A DNA stretch of 48,560 bases from a virus. Below, piece after piece: positions 6,582 to 15,723 of this stretch; the first letter of the stretch is position 1; every line of letters starts with the position of its first letter. Position numbers and translations under genes: made by a program. The notes under the pieces are model-generated. The model did not search any database. It was given only the letters and a program-made list of their open reading frames with translations, and had not been told where the DNA came from. Location of the stretch: positions 1 through 48,560 of IMG/VR virus record IMGVR_UViG_3300033148_004780; one strand, given 5' to 3'.

Positions 6582-6738
6582 TAAACCCCCCTATAAAGTA
6601 GTCGCACTCTCCGACCGTGAAGTCGAAGGGCTCGAAAATATAGCACTGTCTATCTGCGGAGGGACACGTGTACCTCTCGCACTTGTCCTTGATAGGACAC
6701 CTGTCTGCCTGGCACTTGGCTCGATCGCCGTCAATCAT
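6550..6738 (-). CDS. Small Cys-rich protein, probable metal binding
   Basis: 62 residues with six or more Cys in C-x4-CP-x4-C-x3-YTCP...QCYIFEP...ECDYFIGG order. Many phages carry small proteins of this CP..C.RY type, presumed to bind zinc or an Fe-S cluster. It is translation-coupled to the radical SAM gene upstream (8-base overlap), so a role with that enzyme is possible. Confidence 0.7.
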   Translation of the reverse strand: MIDGDRAKCQADRCPIKDKCERYTCPSADRQCYIFEPFDFTVGECDYFIGGFNEEEDSKKRS

Positions 6739-7288
6739 CGAAGTAATCCTTAGCTAACACGAACAGCGTTTCGTTCGAAGCTATGCTAACAGGTCTCTCT
6801 TCCGTTGGCGGGAACATCGACCTTAGCTCAACCGAGTCCCAGGCGTGAGGGTTAACAGGCAGTGATCTTAGGATGGAAGCGTTGATTACCAACCTGTTCG
6901 AACACGGAACATCGAAACCCTTAACTAACGCCTGCTGAACTGTGTTTAACATTCGAATGTCGGCGGGTTCTGCTGAATGGACCGTGTACGTCAATCCATC
7001 AACCCAACTTAGGTATTCCATCATCTGCTCCTCATCCGTAGAGTAGGCAGTGTTGATGTATACCTGATTGAAGTGGTTGTTTGCCTCGGACAGGATGTCC
7101 AAGATAGAAGCGTGAAGAAGTGGTTCTCCTCCGGTTATAACGATCTTATCGTAGTACTTCGGAAGATGCCGAAAGTTGTGGATTTCTGGTAACATCTTGT
7201 CTTTCAATCCGTTGTTGGCACAGTAGTAACAAGATCTCGGACATTCCCAAGTTACTATGACCCTTGCTGTGTCTTTGTTGATAGACAT
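6731..7288 (-). CDS. Radical SAM superfamily protein
   Basis: 185 residues. CPRSCYYC (Cys 16, 20, 23) is the CxxxCxxC cluster motif that binds 4Fe-4S and S-adenosylmethionine. ITGGEPLL follows near residue 50, the GGE motif for SAM. The length fits a minimal enzyme of the QueE/NrdG-like size class. No queuosine, ribonucleotide reductase or other partner gene is seen, so the substrate is unknown. The start at 7288 follows GAGGAGG, and the small Cys-rich protein is coupled at the 3' end. Confidence 0.9.
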   Translation of the reverse strand: MSINKDTARVIVTWECPRSCYYCANNGLKDKMLPEIHNFRHLPKYYDKIVITGGEPLLHASILDILSEANNHFNQVYINTAYSTDEEQMMEYLSWVDGLTYTVHSAEPADIRMLNTVQQALVKGFDVPCSNRLVINASILRSLPVNPHAWDSVELRSMFPPTEERPVSIASNETLFVLAKDYFDD

Positions 7289-7307
7289 GGTAATAGTCCT
7301 CCTCGTT

Positions 7308-7347
7308 TAAAACGCCTCGGCGCAAGGCGAGATCGCCAACGGCGTTC
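7308..7347 (-). terminator. Branched hairpin with U-run after the CRISPR-like unit
   Basis: The outer stem AACGCC/GGCGTT encloses GGCGA/TCGCC. On the minus strand it is followed by TTTTAAA. It lies about 35 bases downstream of the repeat unit at 7381-7413 and may end the transcript that starts at the 7654-7682 promoter. Confidence 0.5.
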
Positions 7348-7380
7348 ACCTTGCACCTCAGCTTGTTAGGATATTTGAGG

Positions 7381-7413
7381 GTTTCAACCCATGCGCTCTG
7401 TGTGGAGCGCAAC
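7381..7413 (-). repeat. Solitary CRISPR-repeat-like unit 1 (type I-C-like)
   Basis: 33 bp read on the minus strand: begins GTTGC, has a 6-bp stem GCGCTC/GAGCGC with loop CACACA, and ends ATGGGTTGAAAC. Length, stem placement and the terminal TTGAAAC match type I-C CRISPR repeats. It forms the last codons and stop of the gene at 7384-7641 and is in the sense orientation. No second repeat at spacer distance is present, so it is not an array. Confidence 0.7.
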
Positions 7414-7641
7414 GTTCTGCATAAGCTTTCGCTGACAGCGGAATACAGGGAATCCCAACGATGTCTTCATCTCCTCTTCAACGAAGTACACGTCGATGAT
7501 TCCTTCTCTACCGGGTAGATACAAGCCTATTTTCTTAGCCTTGAGAATCTGCTGGGTTATCTTGTCGAGGATTTCTCCTTGACAACCAACAAAGTCCTCG
7601 GGGTGGTCGTTCATGTACTTGATTTCTTCTAAGCTTCTCAT
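7384..7641 (-). CDS. Hypothetical early protein ending in CRISPR-like repeat
   Basis: 85 residues from the ATG at 7641, chosen because the promoter -10 box lies at 7654-7659 and excludes the upstream ATG; GTAGGGAG gives a modest ribosome site. Its last ten or so codons are the CRISPR-like repeat unit. The protein has a helical N-terminal half and a strand-rich part (KIGLYLPGREGIIDVYFVEEE). Family unknown. Given the location it is worth testing for an anti-defence role. Confidence 0.65.
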   Translation of the reverse strand: MRSLEEIKYMNDHPEDFVGCQGEILDKITQQILKAKKIGLYLPGREGIIDVYFVEEEMKTSLGFPVFRCQRKLMQNVALHTERMG

Positions 7642-7653
7642 ATGACTCCCTAC

Positions 7654-7682
7654 AATATACTGAAAGTTCTTGTTAAAGTCAA
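7654..7682 (-). promoter_or_regulatory. Sigma70-type promoter (TTGACT-17-TATATT)
   Basis: Minus-strand TTGACT (7677-7682) and TATATT (7654-7659) are separated by exactly 17 bases, the same architecture as four other promoters in this genome. The expected start, near 7647, is only a few bases before the ATG at 7641. Confidence 0.75.
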
Positions 7683-8435: not shown

Positions 8436-8996
8436 TCATAGATACCTCAACGGATGGTAGAAATCCTGTAGCTCCTGCTCTACGTAGGAGTCCAAGTTAT
8501 CGAGGGCGGCTTGATACTCGCGGATCTTGTTCTCAACCCGAGGCTTGATGTCTTTCTTCCACTTCTCCTTGGCAACCTCGATTAGATCATCTAAAGCCTT
8601 GAGCTTTTCTTCAGCCCATCGGGCTAACAGGTATTGGCGTCCTTCCTCGGTTGTGCCTATGACAACGGGATCGGGTTCAACGTCATCGTAGCAGATGACC
8701 AGCTCCTTGAAGTAGGATTCCTTCTCTGCTAACGCTATAGCACCGAGGACCGGAATTGGTATCGGCGACCTATCGTAGGCATTTGGGGATTCCCGCCTTG
8801 GTAGGAGGATCTTCAACGCCTGCGCCTCTCTAGTGTTCAACGGGTAGAACGGAATCGGTGACTTCGCTCTGCCTTCGATGAGCTTGCGTTGACCTTCGAG
8901 GTCAAGTTCCTCGATTAGCTTTTCCCATTCCTTGCGTTTCTCGTCGTCAAAGACGAGTTCCTCTGTTTCTTTGATTACAGCAACCTCTATGTCCAT
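8436..8996 (-). CDS. Hypothetical helical protein coupled to the Ro60-like gene
   Basis: 186 residues, rich in charged helices. The middle segment is PIPFYPLNTREAQALKILLPRRESP and the C-terminal half is a long coiled coil. Its start overlaps the end of the TROVE gene by 10 bases (GGAGGTTGAATC before the ATG), so the two are probably made together. It may act with the RNA-binding protein, but no domain is recognised. Confidence 0.7.
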   Translation of the reverse strand: MDIEVAVIKETEELVFDDEKRKEWEKLIEELDLEGQRKLIEGRAKSPIPFYPLNTREAQALKILLPRRESPNAYDRSPIPIPVLGAIALAEKESYFKELVICYDDVEPDPVVIGTTEEGRQYLLARWAEEKLKALDDLIEVAKEKWKKDIKPRVENKIREYQAALDNLDSYVEQELQDFYHPLRYL

Positions 8997-10336
8997 GATT
9001 CAACCTCCCTAACAAAATCAAGCACCGCTGAAGAAAAGCCGTTGATGCAGGTCCAATCGTTTTCTTGCGAAACCGCGAACTGATAGGGCGCTATGTTCAT
9101 CATATAGCCTGGGCGCTTAACACCTGGGCAAGAATCGTGAAATTGTTCATCTGTTATACAGATAATCCTTGAATGCGGAAGGGATTGTGCGTATCTAATC
9201 GCAGCCCCTCCGTTGGTACTGCCACCGAGCTCCCCCGTTGCCTTGAATAGAGCATCCCTTAAGGCAAAACCCCGCCGAGGTGGAACCTCTGTATAGAGGG
9301 TAGCGAACGCGATTACCCTTGAATGCTCGCATACCTCACGAGCAAGGATAGCTATCGCTGCGGCTGCTTCATGTCTTATAACCTCGGACCTGTTAGATAG
9401 GGGGCAGCCCCGCATAGAACCAGACACGTCCACTAGGATGATCGTCTCTCCTTTGAGCTTGGGAATCTCTTCCGATGCCTTGAACATGAGATGTTCAAGC
9501 TCCGGCTCGAACTGTGGAGCGTACTTAGCAGCGGTAAGGAATCTATAAGGGAGGATTCTCCGAACGTTCAACTGCTTAAGGTAGGTACGGATCTTGGTTA
9601 TATCTACTCCCTGCTCTGTCATGTTGCGGAGATTGCGGATGGTTGCCATAGCACCGAGCTTCTGCTTGTCCATAAGCTCTTCGAAAGAAGCTTTCTTCTG
9701 TTGTTTTTTCTGCTCGGCTGTGCCTTCAACCTCGGATAACTTCTTCTCCCAGGTTTCTGCAACCTTGAGCTTGCCTTGAACCAACCTACCCCAAAGAGCA
9801 GCTTGCTCGTCGTTCTTCGGCTTAGGTCTTGCGATCTTCATCACGTCTCGAAGCTTGATAGCTTTGTCTTCTTGCTTGTACTTCCTGAGCTGGTATTCAT
9901 CGAACTTTCTGAACGCCTCGCCTAAGCCTTTCTTTACCTGTCTCGTGAAGGATTCTCCAACGGTCTTACGGTCAGAGGAACCTCTCAAATACATGGCAAC
10001 AAACTCGGTAATCTCGTCGGGGCGTTGGATTACATCAACGAGCTCATTAGCCTTCATCTTACCATTCTTGGCAAGAGCGCACATTACCCACAAGGGCACG
10101 TGCCTTAGATTCAACCGCGATCTTGCTTCGTTAGCAAGGGCAACGGCGTCCTTTTTTCCTACCTGCAAGGTCAAGCGGGCTATCCTATCAGCGATGTCCT
10201 CACCGCTTTCGTAGAACGTATTCTCCCACAAAAGACAAGCGCAGACAGCGCGCTTAAGCTCTCTTAGCAGGGGGATTTTAACCGCTTTACCGCCCTCGTA
10301 GGTGATTGTCTTTGTTGGTTGTCGATTCAACTTCAT
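8987..10336 (-). CDS. TROVE/Ro60-like RNA-binding protein with vWFA domain
   Basis: 449 residues. The N-terminal two thirds are helical repeats of TROVE character (RLTLQVGKKDAVALANEARSRLNLRHVPLWVMCALAKNGKM; then FLTAAKYAPQFEPELEHLMFKAS). A von Willebrand A domain follows with the complete MIDAS motif DVSGSM (near residue 305) and later Thr/Asp positions (STNGGAA, ITDEQFHD). Ro60 proteins form a ring that binds misfolded RNA ends and Y RNAs, and bacterial and phage versions are known. At 449 residues it is a little shorter than cellular Ro60. The neighbouring 11-16 kb region is rich in tRNA-like and other structured RNAs that could be its ligands; that link is inference. Confidence 0.92.
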   Translation of the reverse strand: MKLNRQPTKTITYEGGKAVKIPLLRELKRAVCACLLWENTFYESGEDIADRIARLTLQVGKKDAVALANEARSRLNLRHVPLWVMCALAKNGKMKANELVDVIQRPDEITEFVAMYLRGSSDRKTVGESFTRQVKKGLGEAFRKFDEYQLRKYKQEDKAIKLRDVMKIARPKPKNDEQAALWGRLVQGKLKVAETWEKKLSEVEGTAEQKKQQKKASFEELMDKQKLGAMATIRNLRNMTEQGVDITKIRTYLKQLNVRRILPYRFLTAAKYAPQFEPELEHLMFKASEEIPKLKGETIILVDVSGSMRGCPLSNRSEVIRHEAAAAIAILAREVCEHSRVIAFATLYTEVPPRRGFALRDALFKATGELGGSTNGGAAIRYAQSLPHSRIICITDEQFHDSCPGVKRPGYMMNIAPYQFAVSQENDWTCINGFSSAVLDFVREVESWT

Positions 10337-10345
10337 AGGCTCTCC

Positions 10346-11224
10346 TTAAATGTGGCAATCGTACAGGGACAGGATCGTATCCTCTGGCAAGCTATCTAAC
10401 AAGCTATAGAATTCATCCACCCAATCGTCGTGCGCCTTCTCGTTAGAGGAGCAGCCAAACCAGCCCATCTCTCCCTTCTCGTACCACTTTCCATCTTTAA
10501 CTACAGCGTAGGTAACAATTGCTGCCTTTGCTCTCTTTTGGACGTACTCCTCCTCGGTGACGAGGAACTCCTTGATAGGAGTTAAGAAGAGGTTGCATTT
10601 ATCTTGGACTTTCTTCCAAACTCTTATCTCTGGTTGTATCCAATAATCCTGTCTTCTCTTGTCGTAATCACCACCGTAGGATCCGTCATCGAGGAACTCT
10701 TTCCATGAGCGCTTAGGGGCTTTGATAGGTCCACCTGCTACCTTGATGACCTGCTTGTATAGCTTGCGTGCTCCCTCTGCCGCGTCTAGACGCATCCCTT
10801 CAAAATCGATGTCACCTATTGCAGCGCGGTCAACCCAACCTTCCCTAACTTGGTTATCGAATACTTCTGTGTTGCCAACGAGACCTGTTCTACCTTCTTT
10901 AAGCTTGAAGTATCCTGTCCATCTTCCGCCGAGTTGATACCAGTCCCACTTGGATTCAAAGTTGTATGTGGTGTCCTCCCACCATTCTCCCCCTTCAAAC
11001 TTCCAAGCCCTCTTGTTCCACTCCCCTCCGTGTAGATCATAGAGCTGTTCTCTAGTTAGTGTGGAGGGGCTGGATTCCCTTGCCTTATAGTAGTTAACGA
11101 ACCGTGCCCAGTCTTCCTCGGTTACCTGCTGTTGGCGATACGGTTCGCATTCGAGACTCTCGTCATAAGGAGCGAGCTGGTGCTCAGGGTCGTCGCCTAT
11201 AACAAGAACTGTAAAGTGGCTCAC
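10346..11224 (-). CDS. Conserved phage protein of the MSHFTVLV type, function unknown
   Basis: 292 residues from a GTG at 11224, preceded by GGAGGT, overlapping the small lipoprotein stop as GTGA. The N-terminus (SHFTVLVIGDDPEHQLAPYDE) is a pattern I recall from many unrelated phages and some bacteria. The middle is rich in Trp (WWEDTTYNFESKWDWYQLGGRW), and a GDIDF/AEGARKLYKQV region follows. No enzymatic motif known. It is next to the Ro60-like gene and in the same direction. Confidence 0.8.
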   Translation of the reverse strand: MSHFTVLVIGDDPEHQLAPYDESLECEPYRQQQVTEEDWARFVNYYKARESSPSTLTREQLYDLHGGEWNKRAWKFEGGEWWEDTTYNFESKWDWYQLGGRWTGYFKLKEGRTGLVGNTEVFDNQVREGWVDRAAIGDIDFEGMRLDAAEGARKLYKQVIKVAGGPIKAPKRSWKEFLDDGSYGGDYDKRRQDYWIQPEIRVWKKVQDKCNLFLTPIKEFLVTEEEYVQKRAKAAIVTYAVVKDGKWYEKGEMGWFGCSSNEKAHDDWVDEFYSLLDSLPEDTILSLYDCHI

Positions 11225-11343
11225 TGTATACCTCCGTGAAGTACAACCACTCTCGATAGGTTGCTTGATGCTATCACAGCATCCGAACAACCAGCCATGA
11301 TGAAGATGGCTAACACCATCAACCTTCTAAGGAACGCTTTCAT
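11221..11343 (-). CDS. Very small lipoprotein
   Basis: 40 residues. The ATG at 11343 has GGAGG seven bases upstream, and the TGA overlaps the next GTG start. A basic N-terminus (MKAFLRRL), a hydrophobic segment and the lipobox-like FIMAGC indicate a processed lipoprotein with an extremely short mature chain. Candidate roles are entry exclusion or an outer-membrane spanin-like peptide; nothing specific shows which. Confidence 0.7.
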   Translation of the reverse strand: MKAFLRRLMVLAIFIMAGCSDAVIASSNLSRVVVLHGGIQ

Positions 11344-11368
11344 AAGCGAGCCTCCTATGTTTGGGATA

Positions 11369-11439
11369 CTACACCGGATGGAATTGAACCATCTCTATCT
11401 CTGTCAAAGAGAGAGGTGCTACCGCTACACTACGGTGTA
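11369..11439 (-). tRNA. tRNA-Gln (UUG)
   Basis: A full cloverleaf: acceptor TACACCG/CGGTGTA, D-stem GTGT/GCAC, anticodon stem TCTCT/AGAGA with loop CTTTGAC (U33, anticodon TTG, A37), 4-nt variable region, T-stem GATGG/CCATC with loop TTCAATT. CCA is not encoded. Confidence 0.88.
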
Positions 11440-11463
11440 TTGTATGGGGGCCTTGAGCTTCTC

Positions 11464-11910
11464 TTATATCTTCACTGAGTCGATGGCATACATAATCGCT
11501 GTTACATCGTCTGCTGATAGTAAGCAAAGCGAGCCTTCTTGATTGACGGCGGTCTTACATGCCTTTTTGGTGCGTTGTTCTATTTCAATCCTTTGCTCAG
11601 ATGTTCCAATCAGTTGCCTAAAATGTAAATCAAGTGTTTTATTCTCTTCTCTCAACCTATCTATCTCGTCTATGAGCCACTGAAGCAAATCTCCTAGGTC
11701 GGGTAACGTCTCGTGCTTGCCCGTAGCTTTTCGCCATCTCTTCGTTGCCTCGCCCATTCGAGTTTGTTGTAAATCGAATAGTCTCCATAATTCATCTATC
11801 TCGTCTAGGACTTTATCAAACAAATTAGTAACATCGCAATATTTTCTGAAATAACTACTATCTTCTAGAGAAATTCCGTCTAGCTTTTCTCGTATCTCAT
11901 CTGTGTTCAT
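11464..11910 (-). CDS. Hypothetical coiled-coil protein
   Basis: 148 residues from the ATG at 11910, chosen because GAGGAG lies upstream at normal spacing. It is almost entirely helical and acidic, with a LLQWLIDEIDRLREENKTL heptad stretch. It is transcribed towards the tRNA-Gln gene. Function unknown. Confidence 0.7.
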   Translation of the reverse strand: MNTDEIREKLDGISLEDSSYFRKYCDVTNLFDKVLDEIDELWRLFDLQQTRMGEATKRWRKATGKHETLPDLGDLLQWLIDEIDRLREENKTLDLHFRQLIGTSEQRIEIEQRTKKACKTAVNQEGSLCLLSADDVTAIMYAIDSVKI

Positions 11911-12003
11911 ATCTAATCTCCTCACCCTAGTGGTCCTTATTCCATCGGTGCAAGGCTTCCATAGTGCCCAATTGTGATACTAGGGTTTTGGAATATTTGC
12001 CCC

Positions 12004-12240
12004 CTAATAAATAGCAATAACGTCTTCAGGACCGCCATAAATACTAAATATTCCTCTTAGCTCTAAAGCTAGTCCGTGGTTGTCCCATGTTATGTTGTAG
12101 GGTATGGGACTAATTTTCCCACTTTCATGAAATTCCAGCTTTCTAATTGTTCCGACTAATTTGGGATGGTTTTTATCACAGACACGAGTACCCACTGGCA
12201 GTACATCCAATATTGTTTTATCACTTGCCTCCATTTTCAT
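12004..12240 (-). CDS. Hypothetical beta-rich protein
   Basis: 78 residues. The ATG at 12240 has GGAGGA upstream. The pattern PVGTRVCDKNHPKLVGTIRKLEF...ITWDNHG suggests a small SH3-like barrel. It directly follows the Ala/Asn-repeat protein gene. Function unknown. Confidence 0.65.
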   Translation of the reverse strand: MKMEASDKTILDVLPVGTRVCDKNHPKLVGTIRKLEFHESGKISPIPYNITWDNHGLALELRGIFSIYGGPEDVIAIY

Positions 12241-12257: not shown

Positions 12258-12902
12258 TTATTCTATCGCCTCGTGAGCTATGGCGACAAGGTCAATATCG
12301 GCACCAGCCGCATAAGCTGTCGCATTAGCTGCATAAGCTGCATTAGACGCCACATAAGCTGCTGCATTAGCTGCATGAGCAGCCGCATTAGCCACCGCAT
12401 TAGCCGCATAAACTGCCGTATTAACTGCTGCATTAGCTGTATGAGCAACCACAGTAGCTGTCGCATTAGCCGTATAAGCTGCATTAGCTGCCGCAATAGC
12501 TGAGCGAGCTGATCTATCTGTACCGTTTAGCCAGTTATCCGCCCATTTGTTCCATTTTCTATCGCTATACCTTTGTTTAACACATAGAATACCAAACTTG
12601 ACAAATTGTTCTTTTGTGATACGTTTCTTGCGCAATCGCTTGATTGTAGTCAACTTGACCGTGCCACTTTTCAATCCATGATCGTGCTTGGTCGGCTCCT
12701 CTATTTCGCATCCCCATAAATGGGGCTGTTTAAAGTTGGCATGCGCGGGATTCATCAAGAGCGCTAATATTGGATCATCATAATAGTGTATCCAATGCCT
12801 AGTACATAATTCGCCTTTGCCATCTGCGGTGTGGGTGACATCCTTGCCCCACTGACAGCCTCCGTATGTTTGGTCATTTTTGTCTGTTAGCTTATATTTC
12901 AT
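12258..12902 (-). CDS. DUF7666-like protein with Ala/Asn-rich C-terminal repeat
   Basis: 214 residues from the ATG at 12902; the longer frame upstream runs through a tRNA-like RNA and is rejected. The N-terminal domain (about residues 1-130) begins MKYKLTDKNDQTYGGCQW and carries a C..H/WGCEIEE pattern seen in mycobacteriophage and other phage proteins of unknown role. From about residue 150 the chain is a run of AANAAAYA-type units (AANAVANAAAHAANAAAYVA), about 60 residues of probable continuous or solenoid helix. The number of DNA repeat units probably varies between relatives. Confidence 0.75.
   Translation of the reverse strand: MKYKLTDKNDQTYGGCQWGKDVTHTADGKGELCTRHWIHYYDDPILALLMNPAHANFKQPHLWGCEIEEPTKHDHGLKSGTVKLTTIKRLRKKRITKEQFVKFGILCVKQRYSDRKWNKWADNWLNGTDRSARSAIAAANAAYTANATATVVAHTANAAVNTAVYAANAVANAAAHAANAAAYVASNAAYAANATAYAAGADIDLVAIAHEAIE
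12305..12500. repeat. Degenerate tandem repeat encoding Ala/Asn helix
   Basis: Imperfect 12-18 bp units of the form GC(A/C)-TTAGC-(T/C)GC-ATAAGC-TGC run through the 3' end of the 214-residue gene. Being in frame and multiples of three, they expand or contract the protein repeat without breaking the frame. Confidence 0.75.
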
Positions 12903-13302: not shown

Positions 13303-13372
13303 TAGGGGGAGGAGGATTCGAACCTCCGTCCGACTGTACAGCGTACGTGTTCTTCCACTGAACTATCCCCCA
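13303..13372 (-). tRNA. Degenerate tRNA-like gene, identity undetermined
   Basis: Acceptor GGGGGA/TCCCCC with a mismatched first pair, T8-A9, D-arm GTTC-AGTGGAA-GAAC and T-arm GGAGG-TTCGAAT-CCTCC are all canonical. The 21 nt between D- and T-arms form only two pairs of an anticodon stem, and U33 and a purine at 37 do not fit together. A GTA or TGT anticodon is possible but not supported. Probably a decayed tRNA. Confidence 0.55.
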
Positions 13373-15249: not shown

Positions 15250-15441
15250 TCACTTAAACCTGATGAATATCTTCGCGTCGACCAGCTGGCCGTGCGTTAG
15301 ACCTTGACGACGGACATATTCGATCGATTCAACTATGTTGTAGTCCTCGTCATCGTTCGAAGAGCGGAGTGTTACGACTTCTGTCTCGCCATTTCCATCA
15401 GGAACCTTAGCTAATGCTGCCTTGACCTCTTTTAGGGTCAT
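15250..15441 (-). CDS. Small hypothetical protein
   Basis: 63 residues. The ATG at 15441 follows AGAAGGAG, which lies only a few bases after the second CRISPR-like unit. TLKEVKAALAKVPDGNGETEVVTLRSSND suggests a helix then strands. Function unknown. Confidence 0.7.
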   Translation of the reverse strand: MTLKEVKAALAKVPDGNGETEVVTLRSSNDDEDYNIVESIEYVRRQGLTHGQLVDAKIFIRFK

Positions 15442-15456
15442 GTATTACTCCTTCTT

Positions 15457-15489
15457 GTTTCAATCCACGCGCTCTGTATAGAGCGCGAC
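15457..15489 (-). repeat. Solitary CRISPR-repeat-like unit 2 (type I-C-like)
   Basis: 33 bp on the minus strand beginning GTCGC, with stem GCGCTC/GAGCGC and loop TATACA, ending CGTGGATTGAAAC. It is closer to canonical type I-C repeats than unit 1 and differs from it at six positions, none in the stem. It starts directly after a TAA stop (15490-15492) and ends just before the ribosome site of the next gene, filling the intergenic gap. Confidence 0.75.
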
Positions 15490-15723
15490 TTATTTGAATA
15501 GTTTGTCGAATTCCCGCTTTGATGAAGGCTTGTTAGTGAGTGCTTCATCTATGCAACTCGTAAGCGCTCGCTCAACAGCGATGAAAACCGTTTCATCCTT
15601 TGAGCTGCGCGCGGTCTTTGCTTGTACCCTGTAGTAGTCTCGTTTTTTTACGAGTACGTCCCTTAAGCGGTCGAAATCGGAAAACTTCCTACTCCGGTGG
15701 ATTTTCTCCTTGCTTCTTGACAT
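15490..15723 (-). CDS. Small basic hypothetical protein
   Basis: 77 residues, basic and helical (SRSKEKIHRSRKFSDFDRLRDVLVKKRDYYRVQAKTA). It overlaps the upstream gene by 35 bases. Its stop codon directly abuts CRISPR-like unit 2. A role in handling that RNA is conceivable but unsupported. Confidence 0.65.
   Translation of the reverse strand: MSRSKEKIHRSRKFSDFDRLRDVLVKKRDYYRVQAKTARSSKDETVFIAVERALTSCIDEALTNKPSSKREFDKLFK

Follow-up and report, generated by a model that had tools for sequence, protein, structure and literature searches.

A 48,560-nt stretch of viral DNA (positions 1 to 48,560 of IMG/VR record IMGVR_UViG_3300033148_004780, here called the window) carries two solitary type I-C CRISPR-repeat-like units, which we consider rather likely to act as a pair of phage RNA anti-CRISPRs (Racrs). 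Judged from its sequence, unit 2 is a genuine look-alike of a type I-C CRISPR repeat and most likely the second member of this pair, i.e., an RNA anti-CRISPR or a diverged copy of one. Unit 1 is located outside the predicted open reading frames (ORFs), and unit 2 overlaps an ORF of 85 amino acids. The units and the adjoining ORFs are the following.

15457 to 15489, minus strand: unit 1, a canonical solitary type I-C repeat-like unit, GTCGCGCTCTATACAGAGCGCGTGGATTGAAAC
7381 to 7413, minus strand: unit 2, a diverged solitary type I-C CRISPR-repeat-like unit, GTTGCGCTCCACACAGAGCGCATGGGTTGAAAC
15490 to 15723, minus strand: 77-aa ORF abutting unit 1, with a weak match to phrog_21452 (unknown function)
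15250 to 15441, minus strand: 63-aa ORF, starting 15 nt past unit 1
7384 to 7641, minus strand: 85-aa ORF with its tail inside unit 2

The first-pass annotation had described a diverged second copy with the same stem and the same TTGAAAC end, and this 33-nt unit was confirmed at positions 7381 to 7413 of the minus strand, with 28 of 33 bases identical to unit 1. The flanks of the two units are unrelated on both sides, and their homology comprises exactly one type I-C repeat length; given the base composition of the window, the chance expectation for such a pair is about 0.002. Unit 2 consists of a stem of 7 bp, a loop of 6 nt, and a 3' tag of 11 nt (fold, -11.7 kcal/mol), and the stem of the units folds in every flank context tried. 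Masking of the 3' tag of each unit by pairing with its flanks was considered and rejected, as the pairing seen equaled that of random-flank controls.

A covariance model built from 15 bacterial I-C repeats (window sequences excluded) found only two good sites when both strands of the window were scanned, unit 1 with 47.1 bits and an E value of 9.6e-10 and unit 2 with 34.6 bits and an E value of 1.6e-6 (next best, 0.6). These E values are rough, and the training repeats had been gathered with a pattern resembling the I-C consensus. Unit 2 scores 12.5 bits below unit 1, and the next match lies more than 20 bits lower. Among the bacterial repeats compared, the closest was identical to unit 1 at 29 of 33 positions and to unit 2 at 28 of 33 (85%). 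Arrays with the same stem are present in bacterial genomes, including those of Yanshouia hominis and Anaerotruncus sp. G3, and Cas5d, the processing enzyme of type I-C systems, is encoded in four of the five genomes checked that carry near-identical repeats. The match to the I-C model, Cas5d in these genomes, and a compensated change in the stem lend good support to the earlier suggestion that the units mimic CRISPR repeats for a Cas5-type protein. No further repeat was found within about 100 bp of either unit; with two units in the entire window, 8 kb apart, both are solitary. Furthermore, none of 25 window proteins scanned against PADLOC matched a Cas protein.

Five changes lead from unit 1 to unit 2 (C3T, T10C, T12C, G22A, and A26G). 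C3T and G22A affect the two bases that pair at the bottom of the stem, where the C3-G22 pair is turned into a U3-A22 pair and thereby compensated; T10C and T12C are located in the loop, and A26G alters nucleotide 4 of the 11-nt 3' tag. This tag gives rise to the crRNA 5' handle, which has a length of 11 nt in type I-C (PMC5965380) and is gripped by Cas5c around nucleotide U5 (PMC7684278). The initial claim that the changes spare both the stem and the 3' tag holds for the stem, where pairing is kept, and fails for the tag. With C3, G22, and A26, unit 2 breaks three columns that are invariant across the 15 bacterial I-C repeats.

That unit 2 doubles as the end of an 85-residue protein, as had been noted from the sequence, is literally true. 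The C terminus of the ORF reads ...QN-VALHTERMG-stop, and the last nine residues (VALHTERMG) together with the stop are encoded within the unit, the stop being the TGA in the unit's own TTGAAAC. Since TTGAAAC is invariant in I-C repeats, a gene that enters such a unit in one of the three frames ends at this TGA. The body of the ORF shows coding-like codon usage in its frame and in no other frame to a like degree. After removal of unit 2 in silico, the ORF stays in frame and meets the next stop four codons on, as is expected of a 33-nt insertion. Searches of IMG/VR, phage records, Pfam, PHROGs, NCBIfam, and the PDB revealed no homologue of the 85-aa protein, and an AlphaFold prediction from the single sequence was uninformative (pLDDT, 45).

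It had also been proposed that unit 2 is carried on a private transcript of about 340 nt, with its own promoter at 7654 to 7682 and a branched terminator at 7308 to 7347. The features that bear on this proposal are listed here.

7654 to 7682, minus strand: promoter-like TTGACT-17-TATATT, matching at 10 of 12 positions, which is chance level
7302 to 7366, minus strand: strong hairpin (-33.2 kcal/mol, z = -5.3) that separates unit 2 from the radical-SAM gene
6731 to 7288, minus strand: radical-SAM gene downstream of unit 2 on the same strand

The promoter pattern was found once, compared with 2.0 ± 1.5 times in shuffles, and is thus no better than these; in addition, the start expected from this site would cut off the Shine-Dalgarno sequence of the 85-aa ORF. 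The fold at the presumed terminator is strong, but the hairpin is followed by GUUUUAAAC without a proper U-tract and is not flagged by a terminator scan. With the promoter at chance level and the hairpin lacking a U-tract, the private transcript found no support. We also observed that this very stable hairpin sits just ahead of the ribosome-binding site of the radical-SAM gene. Between about 20.8 kb and 2 kb, the called genes share one strand, and polycistronic transcription is therefore to be expected. Cotranscription of unit 2 within this same-strand early gene cluster would be the plain expectation and simpler than a private transcript, and the radical-SAM gene is probably located on the same transcript.

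Unit 1 begins directly after the TAA of the 77-aa ORF, and the Shine-Dalgarno sequence and start codon of the 63-aa ORF occupy the would-be spacer position behind it. Searches of Pfam, PHROGs, NCBIfam, PADLOC, and the PDB with the ORFs adjoining the units identified no Acr family, the one weak hit being the PHROG of unknown function listed above.

Among the known RNA anti-CRISPRs, RacrIF1 is a substrate of the host enzyme, which binds and cuts it, and keeps Cas proteins trapped in a dead-end complex; RacrIC1 of a Bifidobacterium pseudocatenulatum prophage shares a bicistronic RNA with acrIC5, lying 11 nt downstream of that gene, and restores phage plating against type I-C immunity (PMC10651486). 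Units 1 and 2 agree with this picture in sequence, structure, and position. Like RacrIC1, the units described here are single type I-C repeats in a phage, without cas linkage and with a small same-strand ORF directly upstream. In contrast to RacrIC1, which was tested and has a known acr neighbor, there are two units, one of them over a coding end, and their neighbors are without known function. SRUFinder, which uses a library of 17,823 repeats, masks ORFs, and requires that a unit match a known repeat with an identity of 90% or more, identified 2,103 solitary repeat units in viruses, and intragenic repeat matches were handled as probable false positives in this census (PMC10651486). Our units resemble the SRUFinder units of viruses and plasmids in being lone CRISPR-like repeats with a stem and a tag, whereas unit 2 differs from them by its overlap with an ORF and by a best identity of 85% among the repeats compared. 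It lies outside the reach of SRUFinder because ORFs are masked, and masking is a search filter rather than a functional requirement. Host-like repeats in a viral genome are also a property of viral CRISPR mini-arrays; these consist of at least two repeats flanking a spacer, a layout that units 1 and 2 do not have. The Racr class is already known, and the placement over a coding end represents a variant hidden from the published search by its masking. To our knowledge, coding overlap of a Racr-like unit has no earlier case.

In a survey of 40 solitary I-C units from IMG/VR contigs, 8 units start 0 to 8 nt past a same-strand stop codon, compared with 4.3% in intergenic controls (P = 3e-4). A start right behind a same-strand stop is the layout of unit 1. 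Stops inside the surveyed units were not more common than in controls (5% versus 10%). Several phages carry two or three I-C units: three are present in IMGVR_UViG_3300031673_000079 and two, 578 bp apart, in contig L079, and canonical plus diverged units, all intergenic, are found in L047 (7448 to 7480 and 9922 to 9953) and L034 (1330 to 1360 and 13130 to 13161).

In the 300-kb phage contig IMGVR_UViG_3300036766_000194 (L059), a gene at 10980 to 12218 encodes a tRNA nucleotidyltransferase of 412 aa (Pfam match, E = 1e-36), whose nine C-terminal residues and TGA come from an I-C unit at 12191 to 12221. A second, canonical I-C unit follows 223 nt downstream of the first. The ten best phage homologues of the nucleotidyltransferase align only to residues 378 to 397, short of the unit-encoded tail. 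The nine final residues and the TGA inside an I-C unit are shared with unit 2; unlike unit 2, the L059 unit belongs to an unrelated large phage, and the gene that it ends codes for a recognizable enzyme. In its arrangement, L059 is an independent precedent for a putative I-C unit ending a gene. Contigs L070 and L053 were left out of this support, as their ORFs with a stop in the unit are short and overlapped by other ORFs, and a pattern match in L029 that resembled unit 2 was rejected, since it arises by chance within a methyltransferase-like ORF. A solitary I-C repeat was also noticed in Yanshouia hominis (L006, 1660 to 1692), located 6 nt past a hicB-like antitoxin gene, with a terminase gene at a distance of about 1.4 kb. 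The genome with this repeat also has I-C arrays and Cas5d, and the repeat is probably a prophage-borne unit within a host that matches it.

The window has identical ends of 114 bp and carries genes for DNA polymerase A, an SU10-like portal, a TROVE protein, and the radical-SAM protein. It also encodes an amidase-type endolysin, which points to a bacterial host. The nearest annotated phage, BK063670, shows 36 to 37% identity and is assigned to Methanomicrobiales; no repeat unit above chance was found in it. Searches of IMG/VR via the terminase, the portal, and the 85-aa protein yielded no relatives of the phage, and 118 spacers taken from the nearest I-C arrays gave no match to it. At 8987 to 10336, the window encodes a TROVE/Ro60-like protein (an RNA-binding ring protein with a vWA domain) that shares about 40% identity with proteins from many other phages. 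Also observed in the window were a 252-aa ORF containing a run of imperfect short tandem repeats (around GCATTAGCTGC) at 12289 to 12495 and a fourth tRNA-like gene at 13303 to 13372 (Rfam, 43 bits) that ARAGORN missed.

If the units are RNA anti-CRISPRs, both would be carried on early mRNAs in a host that we infer to possess a type I-C system. Host Cas5d would recognize their hairpin and 3' tag and cut them, probably after position 22, and Cas5d and Cas7 would be diverted from crRNAs into dead-end complexes on phage RNA, so that immunity would be inhibited. Unit 2 would be a diverged second copy that ends the 85-aa gene, with the repeat's TGA as the stop codon, and the predicted cut (between 7392 and 7391) would fall 5 nt before this stop, as follows from the geometry of unit 2 alone. 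We favor this reading since both units, and no other comparable site, are found by the I-C model, bacterial repeats are identical at 29 of 33 positions, and genomes with near-identical repeats encode Cas5d. It is further based on the solitary state of the units, with no cas gene among the scanned phage proteins, on homology limited to one repeat length, and on the stem pair changed with compensation. The inhibition of I-C immunity by RacrIC1 from behind acrIC5, the 8 of 40 survey units just behind stops, and the other phages with several units point in the same direction. Counted against it are the missing spacer match, the failure to find an acr gene, and the departure of unit 2 from three invariant columns, with a best identity of 85%; in addition, Cas5d would have to compete for the hairpin with ribosomes that translate unit 2.

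Alternatively, unit 1 could be a working RNA anti-CRISPR and unit 2 a captured copy, or one in decay, whose present importance lies chiefly in forming the tail of the 85-aa gene. The three broken columns and the 12.5-bit lower score would fit this, as would the position of unit 2 within a translated frame and its in silico removal, with the frame kept and a stop four codons later, as for a 33-nt insertion. On the other hand, the stem folds with each of the flanks tried, and seven of seven stem pairs survive five changes, one of them compensated. The probability that all pairs survive five random changes is 0.12 to 0.35 and that of keeping all pairs including one compensated pair 0.014 to 0.07, depending on the substitution model, which is suggestive and not strong. 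On balance, we regard this alternative as rather unlikely. The units might also be Cas5d processing sites, by which the phage cuts its own mRNAs or ties expression to host Cas proteins. The predicted cuts are well placed for such a role, since unit 1 lies just before a ribosome-binding site and a cut in unit 2 would remove the 85-aa stop, and I-C units often lie directly behind stop codons; placement behind genes would, however, be equally expected of mRNA-borne Racrs such as RacrIC1, and we judge this role improbable.

A repeat followed by about 35 nt has the shape of a crRNA precursor, and each unit with its downstream bases could form a crRNA-like guide or be the relic of a mini-array targeting other genomes. 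A second repeat is, however, absent nearby, and the bases past unit 1 make up a ribosome-binding site with its start codon. Moreover, a comparison of both downstream stretches with 50,697 phage records gave no match, and the phage itself showed no seed match of at least 8 nt behind TTC; we consider this reading very improbable. Finally, unit 2 is in frame within an ORF, and the L029 match was a chance coding match; that the resemblance of unit 2 to a repeat is likewise chance or purely coding is nevertheless hardly credible in view of the independent model match (rough E value, 1.6e-6) and of 28 of 33 bases shared with a second unit over exactly one repeat length.

Unit 2 and the L059 unit are convincing repeat mimics that extend into coding ends and donate the stop codon. 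The published census masks ORFs, and Racrs may therefore be undercounted. Canonical and diverged copies in one genome would provide a natural test of which bases a decoy needs. It is also conceivable, if quite doubtful, that unit 2 is a Cas-sensing stop codon: a Cas5d cut would create a non-stop message, the protein would be lost or tagged, and the fragment would poison Cascade assembly, whereas the protein would be made if Cas5d is missing. If this were true, repeat mimics would be both decoys and switches that read the CRISPR status of the host, and the L059 phage would be a second example.
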